Shown here piece after piece: positions 40,348-43,073 of a stretch of DNA of 44,733 nt (positions are counted from its first letter, which is position 1; each line of letters opens with the position of its first letter). The DNA lies in the NCBI GenBank assembly GCA_902771225.1, contig CACXWH010000010.1, positions 1 through 44,733 on the forward strand, read 5' to 3'. Source of the DNA: an uncultured Methanobrevibacter sp. (GTDB taxonomy: Archaea; Methanobacteriota; Methanobacteria; Methanobacteriales; Methanobacteriaceae). The notes beneath the pieces were generated by a model. That model did no database searches. It was not told the DNA's origin and saw only the letters and a program-made list of their open reading frames with translations. Both the position numbers and the translations under genes were made by a program.

Positions 40348-40525
40348 ATTAATCAATTTTTAAAGTTATTATATAAATTTTTTATTTAACTTTCATAATA
40401 AATTTTGTTTTTTTCATATTAAATTTTTTGTTTCAATGACATAAAATAAATAACTTTAAATATTTATAATTACTAAATGTTATTAAAAGTACTTTGTTGT
40501 AGAAATTTACATGGAGATGATTCAC

Positions 40526-41779
40526 ATGAATGATTTTGATGATTTGGAAAATTCTTCAAAAGAAGAACTGATTGAAAAAATTGAATCTTTGGAAGATGAA
40601 ATAACTGTGATTCGTGAAGAAAAATCCAAAGCCAAAAGTAACTTAATGTGGAAAGTTAGGAAATTAGAGAAAGATAAAGTTCTAATTGAAAATGAAAAAA
40701 TTAGATTAGAAAGAGAAGCTAAATCCTTACGTTCTGAAGTAGAAAGGTTTAGGTCTCCACCTTTAGTTTTGGCTACTATTACTGAAGTTTTAGATGAAAA
40801 TAGGATGACTGTTAAAAGTAGTACTGGTCCTAGTTTTCTTGTTAATTACTCAAAATTCTTAGATGAAAAATTATTAGTCCCTGGTTCAAGGGTTGCTCTA
40901 AATCAACAAACATTTGGTATTGTTGAAGTATTGCCATCAGAAAAAGATGCTAATGTTTCTGGAATGGAAATTGAAGCAAAACCTGATGTAACTTATGACC
41001 AAATTGGAGGTTTGGATGAGCAAATTATTGAAGTAAAAGAAACTGTTGAATTACCTTTAAAAGAACCGGAATTGTTTGAAAAAATAGGAATTGATCCTCC
41101 AAAAGGAATTTTGTTATATGGTCCTCCGGGAACAGGTAAAACATTACTTGCAAAAGCTGTAGCAAATGAAACAAATGCTACATTTATAAAAATAGTAGCT
41201 TCCGAATTTGTTAAAAAATACATTGGAGAAGGTGCAAGACTTGTACGTGAAGTATTTGACTTAGCTAAAGAAAAAGCTCCTGCCATTATTTTCATTGATG
41301 AACTTGATGCTGTTGCAGCTAAAAGGCTTAAAAGTTCAACTAGTGGAGATAGGGAAGTTCAAAGAACTTTAATGCAATTGCTTGCAGAATTAGATGGTTT
41401 TGAATCAAGAGGGGACATTGGTATTATTGGTGCAACAAATAGGCCAGATATTTTAGACCCTGCACTTTTAAGACCAGGTCGTTTTGATAGATTTATAGAA
41501 GTTCCACTTCCTAATGAAGAAGGCAGAAAGGAAATTCTTAAAATTCATACCAAAAGAATGGCATTAGATGAAGCAGCAGACATAAATCTTTTAAGTGATT
41601 TAACTGACGGATTATCTGGTGCTGACTTAAAAGCTGTTTGTACTGAAGCAGGTATGTTTGCTATCCGTGAAAAACGTGATAAAGTATCCGTAACTGATTT
41701 TATGGATGCTGTCGATAAAGTTACTGACTCTGAACATGATGACGAGTTTAAAAAAGAAGCTGGCGTAATGTTTGGTTAG
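40526..41779 (+). CDS. pan: Proteasome-activating nucleotidase
   Basis: Hexameric AAA+ unfoldase that feeds proteins into the archaeal 20S proteasome. The 417 residues show an N-terminal coiled coil (to about 75), an OB domain ([19 protein letters not shown]...), and the AAA+ module with GPPGTGKT (near 200), the pore loop [10 protein letters not shown], Walker [10 protein letters not shown], and [16 protein letters not shown]. The C-terminus is VMFG, giving a hydrophobic-Phe-X variant of the HbYX proteasome-docking motif. ATG 40526 is preferred because GGAGATGA lies ahead; the ATG at 40511 overlaps that site. A C/D box sRNA follows 11 bases after the stop. Confidence 0.95.
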
Positions 41780-41790
41780 TTTCTCTTTAA

Positions 41791-41856
41791 AATAAGCCAA
41801 TGATGAACCCTATGAGCTCTGATTGGTGATGAATGATGGGCGAGCTGAGGCTTATT
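41791..41856 (+). ncRNA. C/D box small RNA with two guides
   Basis: A complete archaeal C/D sRNA: C box ATGATGA (41800-41806), 12-nt guide (41807-41818), D' box CTGA (41819-41822), C' box GTGATGA (41826-41832), 12-nt guide (41833-41844), D box CTGA (41845-41848), closed by a perfect 8-bp terminal stem AATAAGCC (41791-41798)/GGCTTATT (41849-41856). By the N+5 rule the targets are AGCUCAUAGGGU and CUCGCCCAUCAU, with 2'-O-methylation of the fifth base (C) in each. Target RNAs are not identified. It lies in the gap behind pan and may be processed from its 3' end; TTTTTTT follows at about 41864. Confidence 0.9.
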
Positions 41857-41910
41857 TTATGTACTTTTTTTGTAAAACTTTATTAAAAATTAAAATCTTA
41901 TAGTATTATT

Positions 41911-43073
41911 ATGTTTGGAAAAAAGGATAATCAAAGTAATGAAAGAGTTATTTATCAAGCTAAACCTAATTTGATTTTAGGTTGTAAAAAAGCTATTTTA
42001 GCTTTGATTTTATTAATTTTCATTTTATGTATTACTGGCCCAATTATAAAGTTTATTGGTGGTTTACAGGTTTATTTAATATCTCAAATTAAATTGCCAA
42101 TTACTAGGTATACTTCTATCGCACTTTTTGTGGTTATACTTATTATAATTTTATATATGATTTGGCAAATTATCGGATGGAATGCTAAAGAGTATATTTT
42201 AACAGATTCAAAAATCATTGTCAAATCAGGCGTTATCCTTACTCGTAAGAATTATATGCCTTATTCTACAATTCAGGATGTTAATACTTCTCAAAATATT
42301 CTGGAGAGATTGTTTAATGTCGGTTCTGTAAGTGTCTTCAGTGCTTATGATAATAACCAAATATCCATTGAAAATGTTTCCAATCCTTCAGAAGTTGAGG
42401 AGATAATTTTTAATAATATGTCTAGAAATAGTGGTTATTACCAGGCTCCGCCTCCAAATTCAAATAGTGGCTATAGAAATTCTCAGCAAGGTTATTATCA
42501 GGATTCCCAGCAAGGTTATTATCAGGATCCTCAGCAAGGTTATTATCAGGATCCTCAGCAAGGTTATTATCAGGATCCTCAGCAAGGTTATTATCAGGAT
42601 CCTCAGGTTATTATCAGGATCCTCAGCAAGGTTATTATCAGGATCCTCAGCAAGGTTATTATCAGGATTCCCAAAGGAATTATAATTATTCTCAAGGTAA
42701 TGAGGATTACGATGATGTTGTTATTACTCCAATACAACATGAACGTTATCAACCTAGACAATATGACTATTATCCTGAAGATTTAGATTACAATAATGTT
42801 CAAAAACCGAAATATGAATATGAAACTTATGATGAGAATTTGGAACATAATATTAATCGTGCGATGAGTGGCGGTTTTGAATCTTATAATGATTCCCCAA
42901 ATGATTCTTACAATAATGATTATTATAATAAAGAAATTAACAATGATTCTTACAATAATGATTATTATGAGAATGAAAGGCAATCTCCAAAAAAACATGA
43001 TAAAAAAGATTCAAATGAAAAAGATACTAGTGAAAGTGTTATAAAAAGACATTTCGATAAATTTAAAAAATAA
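41911..43073 (+). CDS. bPH2-domain membrane protein, frameshifted in a 24-nt repeat tract
   Basis: Two membrane helices (about 25-50 and 67-90) precede a bacterial-PH domain (EYILTDSKIIVKSGVILTRKNYMPYSTIQDVNTSQNILERLFNVGSVSVFSA), PF03703 type. A low-complexity tail follows, with copies of QQGYYQDP encoded by 42484-42671. One repeat unit (42604-42623) is four bases short, so the current frame shifts and ends at 42786 in an odd hydrophobic tail. Reading the other frame after the short unit gives a natural Tyr/Asn/Asp/Gln-rich tail to TAA 43073. Adding four bases restores a 388-residue protein. It may be phase-variable, a pseudogene or an assembly error. There is no ribosome binding site; the message may be leaderless. 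Confidence 0.75.
42484..42671 (+). repeat. Eight tandem 24-bp repeats, one unit 4 bp short
   Basis: Units start at 42484, 42508, 42532, 42556, 42580, 42604 (20 bp only), 42624 and 42648. Full units encode QQGYYQDP or QQGYYQDS. Unit 6 lacks CAAG after its first CAG, shifting the frame. Confidence 0.95.

Follow-up and report, generated by a model that had tools for sequence, protein, structure and literature searches.

The stretch of DNA analysed here, 44,733 nucleotides from an uncultured Methanobrevibacter sp. (contig CACXWH010000010.1 of assembly GCA_902771225.1; hereafter the window), carries directly behind the pan gene a short sequence resembling a box C/D small RNA (sRNA). This locus raises the question of whether it is an RNA gene and, if so, which RNAs its guides would address. 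In archaeal box C/D ribonucleoproteins (RNPs), L7Ae occupies the two k-turns and is joined by Nop5 and fibrillarin, the latter being the enzyme that methylates the target base at the N+5 position. On its sequence features, the locus is confirmed as a complete box C/D sRNA gene (Table 1). Boxes C (RUGAUGA), D', C' and D (CUGA) follow one another in order, a 12-nt guide (10-12 nt expected) lies directly upstream of each of D' and D, the D'-C' loop measures 3 nt, and a covarying terminal stem would close the k-turn. Both guides are complementary to tRNA or rRNA with a Watson-Crick pair at N+5. The initial annotation had proposed such an sRNA behind pan with two readable guides, and the boxes, guides, stem and conservation bear this out; the four boxes and both 12-nt guides are read directly as claimed, and the terminal stem, described there as a perfect helix of 8 bp, is indeed perfect but extends to 10 bp. 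The pan stop codon occupies 41777-41779 and the sRNA unit begins 9 nt later; because this gap is so short, the sRNA is likely transcribed together with pan. A T-rich stretch lies directly 3' of the sRNA in the window.

Table 1. Positions of the sRNA, its elements and the upstream gene in the window
Feature	Position	Strand	Basis or remark
Box C/D sRNA gene, whole conserved unit (70 nt including terminal stem)	41789..41858	+	
Terminal stem, 5' arm	41789..41798	+	pairs with 41849-41858; covaries, 63 distinct flank pairs
Box C (ATGATGA)	41800..41806	+	sequence read directly
D' guide ACCCTATGAGCT, 12 nt	41807..41818	+	predicted target pre-tRNA-Met exon-intron junction, N+5 = C34
Box D' (CTGA)	41819..41822	+	sequence read directly
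Box C' (GTGATGA)	41826..41832	+	sequence read directly
D guide ATGATGGGCGAG, 12 nt	41833..41844	+	predicted targets 16S C1402 and 23S C2558 (E. coli numbers), both N+5 = C
Box D (CTGA)	41845..41848	+	sequence read directly
Terminal stem, 3' arm	41849..41858	+	pairing, covariation
pan (proteasome-activating AAA ATPase), upstream neighbour	40511..41779	+	Pfam AAA and proteasomal ATPase OB domains

In the window, no Rfam family scored at or above its gathering threshold. The archaeal C/D models that scored highest came near theirs (RF01152 sR1, 42.7 of 45 bits; RF01139 sR2, 39.6 of 42), with alignments that agree mostly in the boxes and fall short of family membership, and the sRNA is a gene that these thresholds miss. 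Downstream of it, within an open reading frame at 41911-42786 for a bPH_2-domain protein, window 42482-42668 holds about eight 24-bp repeats (QGYYQDPQ). One repeat unit is 4 bp shorter and changes the frame, a coherent C-terminus continuing in another frame to about 43073; the change reflects either slippage resembling phase variation or an assembly error.

A nucleotide search found the sRNA in 138 of 150 genomes of the order, including 89 of the 90 good ones and 18 of 19 genera; within the genus, it was found in 64 of 67 genomes and in all 37 good ones. The 12 order genomes in which the search gave no sRNA match include one that is 95% complete (G074), the sole good-quality genome of the order among them, which is split into about 490 contigs and whose tRNA-Met match is weak (6.1e-5). 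Two copies each were seen in G043 and G090, which are fragmented and possibly contain mixed strains. Loss of the boxes in related genomes had been named beforehand as grounds for giving up the reading, and the boxes are kept across the order. A looser pattern fixing only TGATGA, TATGAG and CTGA, run on 151 genomes of the phylum, matched the sRNA in 139, including G150, which belongs to the same class and lies outside the order. The background comprised one match with a reversed control pattern and five more with other flanks, which look like chance.

Conservation of the guides is concentrated in their central positions. In all 139 genomes, TATGAG is preceded by CCC (guide positions 9-11) and then followed by C, at places that the pattern left open, and deviations at position 1 (G106, G123) and at position 12 (G080, G150) of the D' guide occur in two genomes each. 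Positions 2-11 are nearly invariant, in contrast to the variable positions 1 and 12. The D guide shows the same pattern: its positions 2-11 are invariant in 92 of 92 counted loci with the guide order of the window, a count that excludes L271 (the 93rd, with C at position 2) and L240 (the 94th, cut off); here, too, positions 1 and 12 vary. The pattern of invariant and variable positions agrees with the ceiling of 10 paired nucleotides published for the enzyme (Yang 2016, as cited in PMC7089733). A scan for the D' module across 84,980 species, each represented by a single genome, found 110 stretches; since the query fixed the D' core in that set, conservation of the core is taken from the 139-genome pattern count instead. 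The evolution of guides in archaeal C/D sRNAs has been described as accelerated (PMC7994747); by contrast, this sRNA is nearly invariant across the order, and both guides are kept in a distant lineage.

The terminal stem stays paired despite changes on both sides. Among 67 loci with 63 distinct flank pairs, 490 of 567 cells were paired, compared with a mean of 408 and a maximum of 438 in 500 re-dealt controls that ignore relatedness. The position of the gene is also constant: in all 66 loci examined, which represent 66 of the 138 genomes, a pan alignment on the same strand ended less than 300 nt before box C, and pan is also found upstream of the sRNA in G150.

The target of the D' guide was sought in the genome of the window itself. 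There, 45 sites, the sRNA included, depart from the exact guide complement at two positions or fewer, and one alone, besides the sRNA, pairs at all 12 positions. This site, GGCTCATAGGGT on contig C41, comprises the anticodon loop and intron start of a tRNA-Met(CAU) gene with a 37-nt intron, as identified by ARAGORN with introns allowed; without the intron option, the program missed the gene. The duplex consists of 11 Watson-Crick pairs and one G.U pair at guide position 1, spans the 5' splice site with 8 nt of exon 1 and 4 nt of intron, and places C34 at N+5. The guide gene behind pan and the tRNA-Met gene are separate, lying on different contigs. A tRNA target had been foreseen for the first guide, and this part of the claim stands, but the D-arm assigned to it does not: the exact complement AGCTCATAGGGT is absent from the genome except opposite the sRNA, and the complement found is the anticodon loop and intron start of pre-tRNA-Met(CAU). 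A duplex between the tRNA D-arm and the D' box region of the sRNA was considered and dropped, as it needs many wobbles and a variable spacer. Another site with one mismatch, on contig C35, contains no tRNA gene even with introns allowed. Against rRNA, no target with at least nine pairs including N+5 and at most one wobble was found for the D' guide; 9-bp runs exist, with three or more wobbles.

The tRNA side of this pairing is conserved as well. Among 50 tRNA-Met loci of the order (the 30 best-scoring and 20 chosen for spread, from 150 genomes), the exon end CTCATA is followed by intron GGG in all 50 and by GGGT in 49, while intron bases 5-14 vary. CTCATA-GGG also occurs in three guide-carrying genomes outside the order, G150 and two others; in the other nine outside-order genomes, no intron-containing tRNA-Met with CTCATA-GGG was present among the matches fetched. 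A generic intronless CAU loop pairs with the guide at −10.8 kcal/mol, compared with −20.3 kcal/mol for the pre-tRNA-Met target, and this weaker pairing suggests that the guide could avoid the initiator tRNA and tRNA-Ile(CAU) through its intron contact.

The intron carries a further element, the 8-nt GCTCTRAC, complementary to GTTAGAGC of the D-arm, in 48 of the 50 order loci (L127-L176; absent in L157 and L170), the intron of the window genome's own tRNA-Met gene on C41 (L003/L129) among them. An intron/D-arm helix of 9-12 bp can be drawn in 26 of 29 distinct order precursors, a level matched by 5% or fewer of shuffled introns, and in neither of two precursors from outside the order. The element could thereby give the precursor another fold, with the guide target exposed. 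The best pre-tRNA fold lies below the forced cloverleaf energy in 30 of 31 distinct precursors, G150 included, and for this reason the energy comparison is given no weight as evidence.

Candidate targets of the D guide lie in rRNA. Genes for rRNA were found in few genomes of the order (23S in 3 of 150, 16S in 8 of 150), and none turned up in the genome of the window itself; the sites were read in 23S pieces from G117, G120 and G061 and, for 16S, in the complete genes of four members of the genus. The 23S site TTCGCCCATTAA (G117 and G120, two genomes of another genus) pairs with positions 2-11, with a wobble at 10, and a G.U pair at position 1 of the guide in the window extends this to 11 contiguous pairs; its N+5 base aligns with E. 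coli C2558. The 16S site ACCGCCCGTCAC, present in all four genomes of the genus, pairs with positions 3-11 only, with a wobble at 8, and has C1402 at N+5. The duplex energies are nearly equal (−17.0 for 23S and −17.2 for 16S). Weaker rRNA matches, 9-10 pairs long but containing at least two wobbles, were set aside. Among 3000 shuffled D-guide cores, 13 gave two such sites and 243 gave one; as 256 gave at least one, a single site alone is not strong. A separate count gave a 10-bp site with at most one wobble for 22 of 2000 shuffled cores. The D-guide core TCGCCCAYYA fits four further places in the window's own genome, three within or opposite frames open for 260-300 codons and a fourth (L181) in or opposite frames of 82 and 78 codons.

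The initial annotation had predicted C at N+5 for both guides, which holds for tRNA C34 and for 16S C1402 and 23S C2558 alike, and it had asked for at least 9-10 bp of rRNA or tRNA complement; contiguous pairs number 12 in the tRNA, 9 in 16S and 10-11 in 23S. The exact 12-mers it gave as targets are absent as such, since G.U pairs, one or two per site, occur in every duplex and the rRNA complements are mismatched at their ends.

Whether the D guide serves one of these rRNA sites or both turns on a few bases. The two sites differ at position 8 (A in 23S, G in 16S) and position 10 (U in 23S, C in 16S), and U8 and G10 of the guide pair with both; from these bases, the guide looks bispecific for 16S C1402 and 23S C2558. 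If 23S C2558, in helix 92 beside the A-loop, were the sole target and the 16S match incidental, the longer contiguous pairing would be explained, as would A at position 2, which occurs in 92 of 93 complete forward loci (L271 has C) and fits U of the 23S site and not C of the 16S site; helices 90-93 are also a hotspot of predicted archaeal guide targets (PMC4644070). The invariant G10, which forms G.U with 23S and G-C with 16S, would then lack a reason. In a guide of another lineage (L250), position 8 is C, which makes its 16S pairing perfect (−19.1) and breaks that with 23S (−12.5), the latter calculated with 23S read in other organisms and not with L250's own. No report of Cm2558 was found in the literature examined, PMC4644070 included. 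We consider service to 23S alone rather improbable. The opposite possibility, service to C1402 alone with an incidental 23S match, draws on the same L250 variant, which fits 16S alone, on a duplex energy equal to that of the 23S site, and on the occurrence of ribose methylation at this base: C1402 is m4Cm in E. coli and T. thermophilus and Cm in P. abyssi, yeast and human (PMC7005279, Table 4). In P. abyssi, Cm1376 was modelled in the cryo-EM map, and mass spectrometry saw all modified nucleosides but hm5C (PMC7005279); for H. volcanii, Table 4 of PMC2584109 lists no Cm1402. With ribose methylation of this base known from bacteria, eukaryotes and Pyrococcus, C1402 has the better biological case of the two. 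The conserved A2 and U8, however, are not the choices that would suit 16S best, and an exclusive 16S role appears unlikely, if still worth serious consideration.

Two broader alternatives concern the D' guide and the nature of the locus itself. The match to tRNA-Met might be coincidental, the guide owing its invariance to another RNA or to an mRNA; its 10-nt core does fit one other place of protein-coding length in the same genome, a site on contig C26 that pairs with positions 2-11 only and lies, with no tRNA, inside a 308-codon open frame. This explanation is very improbable: the tRNA-Met site is the genome's only full complement among those within two departures and falls exactly at C34, an intron-containing pre-tRNA is the kind of target known from published systems, and the intron GGG is conserved while later intron bases vary. 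Alternatively, the locus might be no RNA gene, only a 3'-end element of pan or a transcription terminator resembling a C/D sRNA, as its unvarying place behind pan and the T-rich stretch after it would allow. Against this, the four boxes, the two guide spacings and the guide sequences are all kept better than the stem, and the same guides recur, exchanged, in 14 loci that lack an adjacent pan; we give this explanation hardly any credence.

In those 14 loci, identified by script in 12 cases and by eye in two (L255 and L296), the two guides stand in reverse order, the rRNA guide before D' and the tRNA guide before D. The records are titled Hydrothermarchaeota, Pyrohabitans, Hydrothermarchaeum, Euryarchaeota archaeon or archaeon. 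No swapped-guide locus adjoins pan; of the 16 stretches from outside Methanobacteria, one (L233) contains pan, on the opposite strand and not adjacent. In the two loci recognized by eye (L255, 3659, − strand; L296, 6169, − strand), a hairpin-like insert between D' and C' replaces the usual short loop. Separately, an archaeal record (L316, 6565, − strand) has the tRNA-Met guide beside a different partner guide, and a Thermoplasmata record (L220, 1420, + strand), less surely an sRNA, also has a different partner. A permutation is a plausible origin of the exchange: circular forms of C/D RNAs are frequent among hyperthermophilic archaea (PMC3695527, PMC9014305), and M. kandleri sR88 offers a published case of guides rearranged in a circular manner (PMC4644070).

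Taken together, the locus very probably encodes a double-guide C/D sRNA, probably drawn from the pan transcript, that would direct Cm34 formation on pre-tRNA-Met and methylation of 16S C1402 and fits 23S C2558 about equally well. From its anatomy, conservation, covariation and complementarity, we infer that the RNA is expressed, assembles into an RNP and guides methylation. It would probably be cut out of the pan transcript and assemble with L7Ae, Nop5 and fibrillarin. The D' guide would then hold elongator pre-tRNA-Met(CAU) by 8 nt of its first exon and 4 nt of its intron, and fibrillarin would methylate the ribose of the wobble base C34. This step would precede splicing, because 4 of the 12 paired bases belong to the intron, and the intron contact would keep the guide off other CAU tRNAs. 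On helix 44 of 16S rRNA, the D guide would put C1402, a near-universal P-site Cm, at the methylated position; with its wobble elsewhere, it would fit 23S helix 92 about equally well.

A wider proposal, which we regard as speculative and rather unlikely to hold as a whole, is that one ancient sRNA serves AUG decoding through Cm34 together with 16S Cm1402 and 23S Cm2558, the latter two via the bispecific guide with U8 and G10. The guides would have stayed together, with places exchanged, in Methanobacteria and Hydrothermarchaeota-type archaea, and in Methanobacteriales, the 8-nt intron element could make the anticodon loop and the splice site accessible to the guide before freeing it so that splicing can follow. 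For this methanogen lineage, the analysis yields predictions at single-base resolution, namely Cm34 in tRNA-Met, Cm1402 in 16S and possibly Cm2558 in 23S, and the union of tRNA and rRNA targets in one RNA with exchanged guide places offers a handle on why guides stay together.

Given that Cm34 guides were described in 2008 (PMC2584109) and that sR-tMet is established in Haloferax, the function of the D' guide is of a known kind, to which this sRNA adds a new member at most. Separate sRNAs that guide Cm34 of intron-containing pre-tRNA-Met, with the intron in the pairing, comprise sR49 of Pyrococcus and 18 archaeal candidates, which may include one from this order (Grosjean et al. 2008, PMC2584109); the main text of that paper names neither Methanobrevibacter nor Methanosphaera. 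A search of the open-access literature by title, abstract and selected passages, covering this lineage, this function and archaeal C1402 methylation with its guides, returned no report of this RNA or of its paired targets. Less expected are the co-occurrence of both guides, with their places swapped, in one RNA of Hydrothermarchaeota-type archaea and an rRNA guide that looks bispecific.

The closest counterpart is sR49, which resembles the present sRNA in being a stand-alone gene and in what is predicted here for the latter, namely pairing with the anticodon loop and intron, methylation of C34 and action before splicing (PMC2584109); by contrast, its Rfam model RF01303 matches here with 14.1 of 50 bits, below gathering, a score that shows no kinship at the sequence level. 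In Haloferax volcanii, the sR-tMet C/D RNP makes Cm34 of elongator pre-tRNA-Met (Joardar et al. 2011, via PMC4033218 and PMC6601510), a likeness at the level of predicted function. Human SNORD97 and SCARNA97 are alike in target, their C/D RNPs methylating C34 of elongator tRNA-Met, but there two RNAs cooperate (PMC6601510). For the other guide, the C/D snoRNA AtU43 of Arabidopsis directs the 18S Cm equivalent to E. coli C1402 (PMC11542601); this is RNA-guided methylation of the same P-site cytidine in a eukaryote, and the likeness is again one of target. The Pyrobaculum sRNAs (Lui 2018, via PMC7994747) are likewise C/D sRNAs aimed at tRNA, but their second guide is said to have no target (PMC7994747), whereas the second guide of the sRNA described here fits rRNA.
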